The position numbers and the translations under genes were made by a program. Source: Aquabacterium sp. J223 (GTDB lineage: Bacteria > Pseudomonadota > Gammaproteobacteria > Burkholderiales > Burkholderiaceae_C). Taken from it: a stretch of DNA of 64,000 nucleotides. The notes under the pieces are model-generated. The model made no database searches. It was not told the origin of the DNA and saw nothing but the letters and a program-made list of their open reading frames with translations. Positions 4,045-38,157 of the stretch are shown here, piece after piece (position 1 is the first letter of the stretch; each line of letters starts with the position of its first letter). The stretch covers positions 4,506,501 through 4,570,500 of the forward strand of contig NZ_CP088297.1 of the NCBI RefSeq assembly GCF_024666615.1, written 5' to 3'.

Positions 4045-5312
4045 GTTCTGCCACCCCGCATCAGCGCGCGGTTCTCGATGTCCACCCGCAGCACGATCGC
4101 CAGCGCGATCAGGTTGAGCACGATGGCCGACCCGCCGTAGCTCATCAGCGGCAACGTCAGCCCCTTGGTCGGCAGCAGCCCCAGGTTCACGCCCATGTTG
4201 ATGAAGGCCTGCCCGCCGAGCCAGGTGCCGATGCCCTGCGTCATCAGCCCGGCGAACACCCGGTCGAGCGCGATGGCCTGGCGGCCGATGTGGAAGATGC
4301 GCCGCGTCAGCCAGAAGAAGGCGGCGATGACGCAGGCCACGCCGACGAAGCCCAGTTCTTCGCCCACCACCGCGAGCAGGAAGTCGGTGTGCGCCTCGGG
4401 CAGGTAGTGCAGCTTCTCCACGCTGGAGCCCAGGCCCTGGCCGAACAGCTCGCCACGGCCGAGTGCGATCAGCGAATGCGTCAGCTGGTAGGCCTTGCCC
4501 TGCGCGTAGGCCGGGTTCCACGGGTCGAGGTAGGCGAAGATGCGCTGCCGGCGGAACTCGCTGAAGACGATCATCAGCACGAAGGCGCCGACCAGCACCG
4601 CCACGCTGAGGAAGAACATCCGCCCGTTGACGCCGCCGAGGAAGAGGATGCCCAGCGCGATGGCGGCGATGACCATGAAGGCGCCCATGTCGGGCTCGGC
4701 CAGCAGCAGGATGCCGGTGAGGCCCAGCGCCACGGCCATCGGCGTCACCGCGCGGAAGAAGTTCTCCCGCGCGTCCATCTTGCGCACCATGTAGCTGGCG
4801 GCGTAGAGCGCGGTGGCCAGCTTGGCCCACTCGCTGGGCTGGAAGTTCAGCACGCCGAGCGGAATCCAGCGCCGGGCGCCGTTGACCCCCTTGCCGATGT
4901 GCGGGATGAGCACCAGCACCAGCAGCGCCAGGGCCGAGACGAAGAACCAGGGCGCCCACTTCTCCCAGGTGGCGATCGGGATCTGCACCACCACCACCGC
5001 GGCGACGAAGGCCAGGCTCAGCGACAGCGCATGGCGGCTCAGGAAGTGGGTGGGCGCGTAGCGGGCGAAGCGCGGGTTGTCCGGCAGCGCGATGGAGGCC
5101 GAATAGACCATCACCAGGCCCAGCGCCAGCAGCGCCACCGTCACCGCCACCAGCGCCTGGTCGAAGCCGAGCAGCCGCGCCGGCTGGCCGGCCGCGGGCG
5201 CCCCCACCCAGTCGCGGATGGGCACCGGGCCGTCCTCGTCGCGGCGGCCGGGCTTGAGCCGGCCGAGCCAGCCGGCGAGGCCCTGCAGGCGGGTGGCGAC
5301 CGCACCGCTCAT
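4041..5312 (-). CDS. ftsW: Peptidoglycan glycosyltransferase FtsW
   Basis: SEDS-family polytopic membrane enzyme of 423 residues that polymerises lipid II at the septum with FtsI as partner. About ten hydrophobic segments are visible. Family signatures include [29 protein letters not shown] with the conserved Asp, and the C-terminal [11 protein letters not shown] hydrophilic N-terminal tail of about 50 residues precedes the first membrane helix. The start overlaps the murD stop by ATGA. Confidence 0.95.
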
Positions 5313-7093
5313 GCCAAGGCCTCCCCGTGCTCGGCAGCGATGGCCTGCACCTCGTCGGCGAACACCTGCGCGCGGTGCGCGTAGTCGCGGAACATGTCCA
5401 GGCTGGCGCAGGCGGGGCTGAGCAGCACCGCATCGCCCGACCGGGCCTGCGCGAAGCACCAGCGCACCGCGTCGGGCAGCGACCCGTGGCGCTGCAGCGG
5501 CAGGTCGAGCGCCGACAGCACCGACGCGAGGGCCTCGGCGTCGCGGCCGATGAGCGCCACCGCCCGCGCATGCCGGCGCAGCGGCTCGACCAGCGGCGCG
5601 AAGTCCTGCCCCTTGCCGTCGCCGCCGAGGATGAGCGCCAGCTTCGCCGGAGCGCGGTCGGCGCCGAGGCCGTCGATGGCCGCCACCGTGGCGCCGACGT
5701 TGGTGCCCTTGCTGTCGTCGTAGGCCTCGATGCCGTTCACCGTGGCCAGGTACTCGACGCGGTGCGGCTCGCCGCGGTACTCGCGCAGGCCGTGCAGCAT
5801 CGGCGCCAGCGGCAGGCCGGTGCTGGTGGCCAGGGCCAGCGCGGCCAGCGCATTGGCCGCGTTGTGGCGCCCGCGCAGGCGCAGCGCGTCGGCGGGCATC
5901 AGGCGGCGGATGTGCAGGTCCTCGGCCGGCACCGCGGCCTTGCGGCCCCGGCCCTTGCCGCCGTCGTCCTCCGACGGCAGCGCCTGCACCAGCCAGGCCA
6001 TGCCGCCTTCGACGACCAGGCCGAAGTCGCCCGGCGCGCGCGGCGCGTCGAGGCCGAAGCGGACCACCTCCCGCGACACGGTGCGGCCGGGCCGGCCGCG
6101 CGCGCCCTTGACCACCACCGGCGGCGGCACCAGCGCCTCGACCGCCGCGTCGTCGCGGTTGATCACCAGCATGCCGCGCTCGCCGAAGACGCGGCCCTTG
6201 GCCGCGGCGTAGGCCGCCATGTCGCCATGCCAGTCCAGGTGGTCCTGCGTGATGTTGAGCACCGCGGCGGCGTGCGGCTCGAAGCCGCGCACGCCGTCGA
6301 GCTGGAAGCTGGACAGCTCCAGCACCCAGACCTCGGGCAGGTGCTCGAACACCGGCGGCGGTGGCGGTGGCGGGGCGATGGGCAGCGGCCGCTCGGCGTG
6401 CGCGGCCTCGTCGGCGGCCAGTTCGGCGGCGACCTCGGGCTCGGGCTCGTCGACCAGCGCCGTCTCGTCTTCCACCAGCGCCAGTTCGGCGCCGAGGGCG
6501 TCGTCGTCGGGCTCCTCGTCGTCGGGCGCCTCGTCGGCGGCGGGCGCGGCCGGTGCGTCCAGCGACAGGCCCTGCGCGTCCAGCGCGGCGGCCAGCGTGT
6601 CCAGCAGCGACGGCCCGATGTTGCCGGCCAGCGCCACGCGGGCCCCGGCGCGTTCGCACAGCAGGCCGGTGAGCGCGGTGGTGGTGGTCTTGCCGTTGGT
6701 GCCGGTGATCGCCAGCACCTTGGGCGCGTAGCCGTGCGCGGCGGCCAGCGCGGCCAGCGCGCGGGCGAAGAGCTCCAGTTCGCCGGCCACCCACAGGCCG
6801 CGGTCGGTGGCGCCCTTCAGCAGCGCCGCGAGGCGTTCGTCGCGCGGCGACAGGCCGGGGCTCTTGAAGATGGCGTCGATGCGCTCGCCGCCGTCGAGAA
6901 GCGCGGCCAGGTCCAGCGCGCCGTGCAGGCGCCGGGCTTGCGGCAGTTCGCGCTTCAGGTCGTCGTCCTTCGGCGCCGCCTCCCGCGAATCCCACACCCG
7001 GACGCTGGCCGCCCCCAGCCGCGCGCACCAGCGCGCCATGGCCAGGCCCGAATCGCCGAGGCCGAGGACGAGGACGTGCTTGCCTTGGAGCAT
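5309..7093 (-). CDS. murD: UDP-N-acetylmuramoyl-L-alanine--D-glutamate ligase with large acidic insert
   Basis: Mur ligase that adds D-glutamate. It has 594 residues, against roughly 440-500 in most species. N-terminal [15 protein letters not shown] (about 8-22), P-loop [10 protein letters not shown] at 131-140, GNIG at 157-160, LELSSFQL at 258-265, [11 protein letters not shown], and the C-terminal DDSKGTN and [14 protein letters not shown] motifs are all present. The extra length is mainly residues about 175-247, dominated by Ala, Asp and Glu and ending in a run of prolines, lying between the GNIG loop and the LELSSFQ strand. There is a smaller extra segment with a GKGRGRK patch in the central domain. 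The start is preceded by a possible hairpin (7095-7127) and no clear Shine-Dalgarno sequence. Confidence 0.94.
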
Positions 7094-7177
7094 GGCAGGG
7101 CCCGCCCGGCCGCCCGAAGGGCCCTGCGCGCCCCCGTGGGGGGCAGCGAACGAAGAGAGCGTGGGGGGCCGTCATGC
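7094..7177 (-). repeat. Intergenic GC-rich repeat with hairpin before murD
   Basis: The 84 bases between mraY and murD are the only sizeable gap between mraY and ftsQ. They contain a 9-bp inverted repeat (7095-7103 with 7119-7127, 15-base loop) that abuts the murD start codon, and a CCCCCGTGGGGGG element at 7131-7143 followed by a purine-rich AGCGAACGAAGAGAGCG stretch. From memory, similar C-run/G-run elements are common between genes in Burkholderiales; I could not verify copy number. Confidence 0.55.
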
Positions 7178-14892: not shown

Positions 14893-15172
14893 TCAAAACG
14901 GGCGCGAAACTTCAATCAAATCAACAACTTACAGCCGCATGTGCAGTTACTCACAAGATTTTCTCGGCCAAAAGCAAAGACTTGCGAGAGGCACTGAAAG
15001 TGGAAGGTGAGCAGCAGGGCGCTTCACCTGGACAGGCGGCGACGCCACAACCGGCAATGGCGGCCAGCGGCAGCAGACCGAGGGCACCCGCCACAAGAGG
15101 CGCGGTGCTGTCCCACCCGGGACAGGTTGCCTCCGGCGGCTAGGGGCGGGCTGCCGTTAGCGCGCCCGGAGG
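14893..15172. other. Intergenic region upstream of mraZ, no gene recognised
   Basis: The stretch at about 14,895-15,000 is markedly more AT-rich than its surroundings (for example TCAATCAAATCAACAACTT), as expected for a regulatory region. The rest is GC-rich. Open frames here have no recognisable protein features. A small RNA cannot be excluded. Confidence 0.5.
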
Positions 15173-15236
15173 GATCCGGGTCCTCCGGTCCGCTTGGGTA
15201 GCCCGCGTGGGGGGCGGCCGCCAGGCGGCCGGGGGC
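15173..15236. repeat. Intergenic repeat, copy next to the ZIP transporter gene
   Basis: This 64-base element ends exactly at the ZIP gene stop codon. Its last 28 bases (15209-15236) match 32330-32357 with one difference, and the upstream part (GATCCGGGTC...CCGGTC) also aligns. It contains a GGCGGCCGCC palindrome. Confidence 0.7.
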
Positions 15237-16163
15237 TCAAAGTGAGGTGTCCATCACCATCATGAGGCAGAACCCCACCGCCAGGCCGAGGGTGGCCCAG
15301 GTCTCGTGGCCGCGGCGGTGGCTTTCGGGAATCACCTCGTGGCTGACCGCGAACAGCATGGCCCCCGCGGCCAGCGACAGGCCCCACGGCAGCAGCGCCG
15401 AGAACACGTTGACCGCCAGCGCGGCGAGCACGGCGAACGCCGGCTCGACCACGCCCGACAACGCGCCCAGCAGCGCCGCCCGGCCGCGCGGCAGGCCGGC
15501 GCCGACCAGCGCCAGCGCGATGACCAGCCCCTCGGGAATGTCCTGCAGCGCGATGCCGGCGGCGAGTTCGCGCGCCTCGGGCACGGCCGCCCCCGCGGCG
15601 ACGCCGACGGCCATGCCCTCCGGGATGTTGTGCAGCGTGATGGCGAGCACGAACAGCGTCACCCGCCCCATCGGCCGGCCGGGGCCCTCGCGGTCGTGGC
15701 CGCGGCCGTCGAAGTGGCGGTGCGGCCAGGCGCGGTCGAGCAGCAGCATGGCGAGCACCCCGGACAGCAGGCCGGCGCTGACCAGCAGGCCGGCCGCCGC
15801 CGGCCGCAGCCCCTGCTCGCCCGCCGCCGCCAGGCCCGGGAGCAGCAGCGAGAAGGCGGTGGCGGCCAGCATGACGCCGGCGCCGAAGCCCATCAGCGCG
15901 TCCTCGACCCGGGGCGCCATGCGCCGCACGACGAGCACCGCGCCGGCGCCGGCCGCGGTGGCCAGCGCGCACCACAGTCCGCCGGTCAGGCCGTCGCGCA
16001 GCCCCTGCGACCAGCCCCCGGGGCGCACGCCGGCGCCCGAGGTGGCCAGCACGGCCAGCACCGCGAGCGCGAGCAGCAGGGACAACGCGCCGGCCGTGCG
16101 CAGCGCGCCCCAGCCCGGCAGCCGCGCCTCGGCGCGCCACCACTGCAGAACGGCCTGGACCAT
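15237..16163 (-). CDS. ZIP family divalent metal transporter
   Basis: A 308-residue polytopic membrane protein. The two ZIP metal-site helices are clear: one with HNIPEG and the next with QDIPEG, where the first His of the second motif is Gln. A His/Asp/Arg-rich cytoplasmic loop (RHFDGRGHDREG) lies before helix IV, and a final SHEVIPESH motif is present. ZIP proteins move Zn, Fe or Mn into the cytoplasm; the metal cannot be told from sequence alone. The N-terminal helix of about residues 22-45 is an extra segment compared with minimal ZIP proteins. No neighbour suggests regulation. Confidence 0.88.
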   Translation of the reverse strand: MVQAVLQWWRAEARLPGWGALRTAGALSLLLALAVLAVLATSGAGVRPGGWSQGLRDGLTGGLWCALATAAGAGAVLVVRRMAPRVEDALMGFGAGVMLAATAFSLLLPGLAAAGEQGLRPAAAGLLVSAGLLSGVLAMLLLDRAWPHRHFDGRGHDREGPGRPMGRVTLFVLAITLHNIPEGMAVGVAAGAAVPEARELAAGIALQDIPEGLVIALALVGAGLPRGRAALLGALSGVVEPAFAVLAALAVNVFSALLPWGLSLAAGAMLFAVSHEVIPESHRRGHETWATLGLAVGFCLMMVMDTSL

Positions 16164-32226: not shown

Positions 32227-32294
32227 GACGACCCCGTGGGGACAGGTCGCCGCAGGCGACCAGGGGCAGCGGTCTCGTCAAGCGGGCCCGGCAC

Positions 32295-32357
32295 GATCCG
32301 GGTCTCCCGGTCGTGTCGGGTGCCCCCGCGGGGGGCGGCCGCCAGACGGCCGGGGGC
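32295..32357. repeat. Intergenic repeat, copy between secB and gpsA
   Basis: A 63-base element whose 28-base core (32330-32357) differs at one base from 15209-15236, with a related GATCCGGGTC...CCGGTC lead-in. It ends 11 bases before the secB stop codon, so, like the copy near the ZIP gene, it lies just 3' of a minus-strand gene. The neighbouring 32227-32294 also looks repetitive (GTCGCCGCAGGCGAC inverted repeat). Confidence 0.7.
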
Positions 32358-32368
32358 CCACATCTTCG

Positions 32369-32830
32369 TCAGGCGTTGGCCGTGGCGCCGTTGGCGCCCT
32401 GCTGCTGCTGGCGCTGCGCGTCGAACATGGCCTGGAAGTTGACCTCGGTCAGCAGCACCGGCGGGAAGCCGGCACGGGTGCAGACGTCGGAGACGATGGC
32501 GCGCAGGTACGGGTAGACCATCTGCGGGCAGGCAATGCCGATGATGGCTTCGAGCTGGTCCTGCGGCAGGTTGCGGATCTCGAAGATGCCGGCCTGCTTG
32601 GCCTCGATGAGGAACACCGTGCGGTCGCCCACCCGGGTGGTCACCGTGGCGGTGACGCAGACCTCGTACACGCCCTCGGCCACCGGCTCGGCGGACAGCC
32701 CGAGGTTGATGTCGACCTGCGGCTGCTGCTGCTCGAGCAGGATCTGCGGCGAATTGGGCTGCTCCAGCGACAGGTCCTTCAGGTACATGCGCTGGATCTG
32801 GAACACGGGGGTCGCGTCTTGCTCGGCCAT
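32369..32830 (-). CDS. secB: Protein-export chaperone SecB
   Basis: A 153-residue cytosolic tetrameric chaperone that delivers unfolded preproteins to Sec[43 protein letters not shown], the AKQAGIFEI strand and [15 protein letters not shown] are diagnostic, and it ends with a Gln-rich tail. The ATG at 32830 follows an AAGGCAAG ribosome site; an upstream ATG at 32863 is less likely. Confidence 0.97.
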
Positions 32831-38097: not shown

Positions 38098-38157
38098 TCG
38101 GGTACGTCGGCCGATCCCTTGAGGGGATGGCGGGCCGGCTTGGGAGCGGCCCGGCGC
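38098..38157. repeat. Intergenic repeat between pyrR and ruvX, related to the murC insert
   Basis: It lies about 28 bases 3' of ruvX. It contains GGTACG at 38101 and the 19-bp string at 38139-38157 that is identical to 1933-1951 within murC. The middle part has a CCCTTGAGGGG-type inverted repeat where the murC copy has GCCCCCCAAGGGGGC. The orientation relative to transcription is the same in both places. Confidence 0.65.

Follow-up and report, generated by a model that had tools for sequence, protein, structure and literature searches.

What is the repeated sequence that lies directly behind stop codons in Aquabacterium sp. J223, and does it work as repetitive extragenic palindromic (REP) elements are thought to work in enterobacteria? 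The question arose from a 64,000-nucleotide stretch of this genome (hereafter the window; NZ_CP088297.1, positions 4,506,501 to 4,570,500), in which two minus-strand sequences, at 15173-15236 and 32295-32357, had been predicted to belong to a dispersed family lying just after genes and acting at transcript ends or in mRNA stability. Post-stop REP-like repeats are often explained by RAYT, a Y1 transposase (PF01797). The element described here is a genuine hairpin repeat close to stop codons, detected in Burkholderiales in the present searches, and it forms a numerous, structurally defined class with REP-like placement in a genome without RAYT.

The repeat comprises three hairpins

The shared 28-mer occupies 15209-15236 and 32330-32357, with one difference between the two, and each copy is preceded on its 5′ side by a minus-strand gene, as had been predicted; a search of the window returned these 2 matches, compared with 0 in 100 shuffles. 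The bounds first given (~63 bases) enclosed a genuine repeat but covered only part of it. The whole repeat measures ~127 bp and, read on the strand that encodes the upstream gene, consists of three hairpins, H1, H2 and H3, so that the true extents, 15111-15236 and 32231-32357, are about double the original length. In 16 aligned copies the coding-strand order is RCCCCCGGCCGTCTGGCGGCCGCCCCC-GGGGG (H1), H2 with the core GACCGGGRGACCCGGATC, a linker, and CCCCTGGTCGCC...GGCGACCTGTCCCC...GGGG (H3). The H2 core is irregular, with the consensus GACCGG-S-RRA-S-CCGGATC. The copy at 32231-32357 begins 11 nt past the secB stop codon (32369-32371) and finishes 4 nt ahead of the gpsA ATG, while the copy at 15111-15236 begins 0 nt past the stop codon (15237-15239) of a ZupT-like gene.

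Copies are dispersed and follow gene ends in sense orientation

Allowing up to 3 mismatches, the 28-base core occurs 19 times in the 4.66-Mb genome, with 0 matches to a backwards control. A covariance model (R1) was built from 16 of these copies, L012, L013 and L018 being dropped, and it identified 30 genome copies at E<1e-3, a count for which 150 of 11727 candidates were scored. An independent R1 scan of 864 kb (800 kb of the genome plus the window) detected 12 copies at E<1e-3, all of them already among the copies from the candidate list (one there at E 0.00102). Within the same 864 kb, the H1 pattern (8 matches), the H2 core (8) and a strict H3 pattern (6) matched solely inside R1 matches. 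The family is thus dispersed as predicted, and it extends well beyond the two copies in the window. Read by eye, the copies had no clear replication-strand bias.

Gene positions were taken from a codon-usage caller, whose start sites are rough. A same-strand gene end lies at most 13 nt upstream in 27 of the 30 copies, whereas random intergenic placement gives 3.3% for the same test; in three of these 27, element and called gene share 14 nt. The distribution relative to gene ends is therefore not random, and the proposed position after stop codons holds. The stop codons upstream of the copies (22 TGA, 4 TAG, 1 TAA) are used in proportions similar to those of a genome sample (659, 95 and 21).

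With respect to the following gene, 21 copies were codirectional, 3 antisense, 5 convergent, none divergent, and 1 had no downstream call (n=30); the ratio of codirectional to antisense, 21:3, has a binomial p of 1.4e-4. One of the copies called antisense (L026) in fact sits 10 nt past the 3′ end of tRNA-Arg in sense orientation. At this locus (L026 1501-1712; genome near 330252-330377) the copy follows a tRNA gene rather than a protein gene. With the element subtracted, the gaps that hold 15 of the 21 codirectional copies would measure no more than 40 nt, compared with 56% of 545 codirectional gaps in a genome sample that are this short, and in 13 of the 21 the next codirectional gene is within 30 nt.

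Relatives and a wider class sharing the H2 core

A 25-base H1 pattern matched 61 stretches in a species-genome collection, of which 55 carried Burkholderiales titles (Rubrivivax, Aquabacterium, Aquincola, Rhizobacter, or Burkholderiales/Burkholderiaceae metagenome-assembled genomes) and 6 were titled only as Proteobacteria/Pseudomonadota metagenome-assembled genomes; the element is present in cultivated phototrophs (Rubrivivax). Selection by the exact H1 pattern biases this set towards well-kept copies, and the scan may miss records very near to this genome. R1 found 70 matches in these stretches, and 60 of the 61 hold a match scoring more than 60 bits. For 62 of the 70 matches, 8 weaker or partial ones having been dropped, the flanks were analysed, and 57 copies start at most 13 nt past a same-sense stop codon; together with the 27 of 30 in the Aquabacterium genome, this bears out the REP-like placement that had been suggested. 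Some copies in different genomes lie at apparently orthologous gene ends (e.g. L212/L220 and L209/L210). In G132 (C1:1396466-1396763, L127), two full elements form an inverted pair 44 bases apart.

The distribution was surveyed in samples of 200 genomes (family), 300 genomes (order) and 274 genomes (class), each a draw from its group rather than the whole of it. R1 matched at E<=1e-4 in 27 of the 200 family genomes, our own included, and exceeded 60 bits only in our own, G117, G132, G142, G097 and G198. The H2 core pattern was more widespread, with 487 copies in 63 of the 200 genomes (counted from a retyped table) and 0 matches to the backwards control. Of the 300 order genomes 11 contained it, including 6 that do not belong to the family. 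The single matches of G331 and G213 fall within gene-like stretches and are probably due to chance. Three of the 274 class-level genomes contained it; only G657 lies outside the order, and its one match is at chance level, since the backwards control also matched once in this sample. In the samples searched, the H2 core is almost confined to Burkholderiales.

Most copies of the wider class that were read are shorter than the window's element: a stop codon is followed by an H1 of different sequence, CCCCC-GGGGG, then H2 and often a GCTTGG-like tail. G295, a 4.6-Mb genome of another family, contains 126 H2 cores (e.g. L302 on C1), and some of these stand in close tandem. Several G295 copies are followed by a CTGTTTTC-like tail. 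In L262 (G294, also another family) the same H2 core is enclosed by an AT-rich, paired outer stem. An AT-rich H1-like hairpin accompanies it. The window's element was not found in plasmids and phages; the shorter class is present on six plasmid records.

Stem letters change while pairing is retained

In the 70 model-aligned R1 matches, both sides change in 26 of 36 pairs, and the covariation score of 0.217, compared with 0.073 for shuffled alignments, was reached in 0 of 500 shuffles; this alignment was fitted to R1 and so leans towards the model. A MAFFT alignment of 16 copies, which was not fitted to a model, gave the same direction, with both sides changed in 10 of 36 pairs and a score of 0.175 against 0.074 shuffled. 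Among 83 distinct H2 sequences the core is kept and the outer stems vary, mostly pairing over their 8 outer positions; the search pattern itself demands most of the core, including the bulged A. Where this A is missing (L044, L203 and L232, read by eye), a C.T mismatch stands in its place. H3 behaves like H2, its stem letters varying with pairing retained. Two Rubrivivax gelatinosus genomes (L234, L247) have different H2 outer stems at one gene end, each of them paired.

Transposase, target site and known repeat families

The original prediction suggested looking for an associated REP-type transposase. Such a partner was not supported: PF01797 had 0 matches in this genome (G000), and across the 200 family genomes it was rarer in element-rich ones, occurring in 7 of 18 with at least 10 H2 cores and in 140 of the remaining 182. 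Rfam gave 0 matches at the gathering threshold in the window, and six loci searched with a limit of E<=0.1 likewise gave 0.

REPs of the GTAG and CGTC super-families are dispersed palindromes near the 3′ ends of open reading frames, between codirectional or convergent genes, and are grouped; CGTC REPs likewise lack a dedicated transposase (Di Nocera 2013, PMC3733652). The present element shares with REPs and bacterial interspersed mosaic elements (BIMEs) its dispersed palindromes, its placement beside the 3′ ends of open reading frames and its grouped copies. It differs in measuring ~127 bp with three hairpins, where REPs measure 20-40 bp, in having no fixed tag and in the absence of RAYT. GACG (CGTC on the other strand) stands just ahead of the element in only 3 of 30 copies here and 10 of 62 elsewhere, and the tetranucleotides at the foot of H2 are mixed, with no fixed GTAG or CGTC. 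An ordinary REP/BIME family moved by RAYT, whose placement these copies share, is accordingly a highly improbable description of them, given their size, their untagged hairpins and the negative association with RAYT. The main text of PMC3733652, as available, does not contain the words Burkholderia, Rubrivivax, Leptothrix, Acidovorax or Methylibium.

The Beta-proteobacterial repeat element (BRE) is mostly intergenic, GC-rich, 75-91 bp long and found in tandem copies, and it flanks lexA in Bordetella (Hot 2011, PMC3110155). Compared by description only, its size, GC content and host range are similar to those of the shorter H1-H2 class, in which, by eye, G020 has a period of 87 bp and G295 has close tandem copies. 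The window's element is longer, and no H3 part is described for BRE in the available text. No H2 core was found at the lexA loci of G295, G335, G431, G402 and G460. By description rather than by sequence, the shorter class and the published BRE may be one and the same.

ERIC sequences of enterobacteria are imperfect, single long palindromes in intergenic positions. On these general features our element resembles ERIC in its length, its imperfect palindrome and its intergenic position, and differs in its hosts and in having three hairpins instead of one long palindrome, so that the two are set apart by description only; the ERIC repeat measures 127 bp (PMC2759123). Beyond the REP and BRE papers, nothing in the literature searches was recognised as this element, judged mainly from listings, and a search of the literature for its sequence as text matched, among the papers listed, only with a 12-letter term, these papers all being unrelated by title.

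The elements at secB-gpsA and mraY-murD

Two operon sites allow the element to be compared with loci that lack it; gaps to the next start codon are approximate at both. In this genome secB and gpsA are separated by 142 nt; among the 29 other loci compared, 18 have a gap no longer than 60 nt. Among the longer gaps, that of G194 has an H2-core element and that of G103 a GC-rich hairpin-like sequence. In 6 of 30 loci, our own included in the total, an apparent hairpin followed by a T-tract occupies the gap instead (by eye; L169, L170, L177, L179, L182, L189), and a seventh, in G115, is doubtful.

These alternative occupants, and the stable GC hairpins placed after stop codons, would suit Rho-independent transcription terminators, and one copy in G132 (L126, outside the set of 91 scored) has TTTTTT ~10 nt past the element. 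We nevertheless regard this explanation as very unlikely for the family. A T-tract follows the element in just 2 of 91 copies and H2 in 1 of 91; the 13 of 21 copies with a codirectional gene within 30 nt leave scant room for a promoter; and a related type of element lies within mraY-murD. Given that T-tracts are rare and that copies sit inside tight gene pairs such as secB-gpsA and, for the related type, mraY-murD, the element is unlikely to terminate transcription strongly.

The related element, at 7094-7177, and a second sequence, at 38098-38157, had been considered relatives of the repeat. The former appears to be a different type of stop-proximal element: by eye, its type of H1 stands before the same H2 core in G117, and G132 has a homologous element in the mraY-murD gap. 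It had no R1 match, however, and its fold is not better than that of shuffles (z -0.58). Between this genome and G132 the stem letters have changed in each arm (GCAGGGCCC/GGGCCCTGC and GCAGCCGCC/GGCGGCTGC). The remaining 28 mraY-murD loci compared had no such element, murD starts being unplaced in 11 of the 30 loci (G132 among them), which were read by eye.

A possible mRNA module or a selfish repeat

Our preferred reading, held tentatively and at somewhat less than an even chance, is that of a dispersed, non-coding and non-autonomous hairpin element of Burkholderiales, located directly past stop codons on the coding strand and mostly inside close gene pairs, which would act as an intercistronic mRNA module. 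According to this model, the element would form part of the upstream gene's transcript, and on this mRNA its highly stable hairpins would block 3′-to-5′ exonucleases. Marking an intercistronic or 3′ end in this way could stabilise the upstream message relative to the downstream one; both steps have been proposed for REP/BIME. A putative protein might read the irregular and nearly invariant H2 core, and spread of the copies would not need RAYT in the same genome. In E. coli, REPs within ~15 nt of a stop codon have been reported to affect translation. It is plausible that the element acts at mRNA ends or on message stability, and that it controls the 3′ end at the secB-gpsA site. In favour of this reading stand the position after stop codons, the sense orientation, the paired stems with their retained H2 core (also in the AT-rich L262) and the operon-like gaps.

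Several observations weigh against an RNA-level role. Changes on both sides of a pair occupy 177 cells and one-sided changes 18, 10 of the latter at a single H1 pair; such an excess is unusual for slow RNA compensation and is compatible with repair by template switching or with the exchange of whole blocks between copies. Of 26 distinct H2 stems in this genome, 18 depart from Watson-Crick pairing at one or more of 8 positions (16 if G.T is counted as paired). The wobble signature of a sense RNA, G.U in excess of A.C, was looked for and not found: outside H1, G.T and A.C cells number 5 versus 14 in A2 and 7 versus 14 in A3, and the readings of H2 and H3 agree. On average both strands fold better than shuffles, and equally so (mean z -2.88 and -2.75, n=106), although some single copies do not, among them 15111-15236, the very copy first noted, which is partly decayed. 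Comparisons at secB-gpsA and mraY-murD further indicate that copies are gained and lost between genera. Since no wobble preference was detected and the strands fold equally, the covariation demonstrates hairpins without singling out RNA as the acting molecule.

The mRNA role is preferred, and nearly as likely is a selfish, non-autonomous hairpin repeat, akin to a miniature inverted-repeat transposable element or REP, that spreads at the DNA level through a putative single-strand recombinase or recombination. Stop-proximity would then reflect where insertions are tolerated, and the mobility mechanism or hairpin template switching would keep the palindromes perfect. The lack of sense-wobble preference is consistent with this explanation, as are the tandem copies (L214, L242), the inverted pair in G132, the patchy presence among sampled genomes and the block-wise replacement of an H2 stem in the two R. 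gelatinosus genomes. The H1 loop is mostly TCTGG in intact-looking H1s of this genome (9 of 10) and mostly CCTGG elsewhere (50 of 62; the pattern allowed both), and such lineage-specific loops suggest spread or homogenisation within lineages. The conserved stem irregularity also recalls the hairpins of single-strand transposases. Against selfish spread stand the absence of PF01797 from the genome with its negative association over 200 genomes, and the failure to find a target duplication, the longest word shared by the flanks averaging 3.34 compared with 3.29 (sd, standard deviation, 0.09) in shuffles (n=91). Tolerance alone does not obviously account for the 21:3 sense orientation or for the distance of 0-13 nt from the stop codon.

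The two-sided changes, together with few intermediates and many swaps of G-C to C-G, would also be produced by neutral template switching during replication (quasi-palindrome correction), which makes perfect palindromes that have no function. We consider this very improbable. The bulged A persists in the H2s retained by the pattern (which requires it), a C.T mismatch replaces it in L044, L203 and L232, and the outer stem mostly stops at a constant length; persistent irregularity of the core and constant stem length are not expected from quasi-palindrome correction.

A further proposal, which we rate as doubtful, is that the H2 core is the binding site of a putative Burkholderiales nucleic-acid-binding protein and that the elements are portable gene-3′-end modules that rewire operon stoichiometry and the ends of mRNAs from one genus to another. 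The near-invariance of the hairpin core makes a direct pull-down of a binding partner possible. Host function and selfish DNA could be distinguished experimentally at the defined operon sites secB-gpsA and mraY-murD, at which the element is missing from most of the relatives examined.

Features of the window and neighbouring genes

Coordinates of the element copies, their parts and the adjoining genes in the window
Feature	Start	End	Strand	Evidence or remark
Complete three-hairpin element	32231	32357	-	Between secB and gpsA; R1 124.4 bits, E 3.1e-22 over 864 kb
H1 hairpin, stem arms and loop	32336	32352	-	Alignment, pair counts, letters checked
H2 hairpin, variable outer stem round fixed irregular core	32287	32320	-	Alignment, pair counts
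H2 core GACCGGGAGACCCGGATC, bulged A in 3′ arm	32295	32312	-	Pattern searches, letters checked
H3 block CCCCTGGTCGCC..GGCGACCTGTCCCC..GGGG	32232	32266	-	Alignment, pair counts, letters checked
Second element copy, partly decayed	15111	15236	-	R1 78.7 bits; H2 outer stem mismatched (row L040)
Stop-proximal hairpin element, other type	7094	7177	-	Fills mraY-murD gap exactly; homologue in same gap of G132
ZupT-like metal transporter gene, upstream of 15111-15236	15237	16163	-	NF003243 1.2e-29, under its curated cut-off
secB, upstream of 32231-32357	32369	32830	-	NF004394 1.2e-71
gpsA, downstream of 32231-32357	31246	32226	-	NF000940 1.1e-135
mraY, upstream of 7094-7177	7178	8359	-	TIGR00445 5.8e-121
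murD, downstream of 7094-7177	5309	7093	-	TIGR01087 1.7e-99

The sequence at 38098-38157, in the ruvX-pyrR gap, was not supported as a family member: it has no R1 or H2-core match, its fold does not surpass that of shuffles (z -0.45), and the tests used do not show it to be related to the repeat. The MurD protein encoded at 5309-7093 contains a long acidic, Ala/Pro-rich stretch at about residues 178-250, and many relatives match it only after about residue 250.
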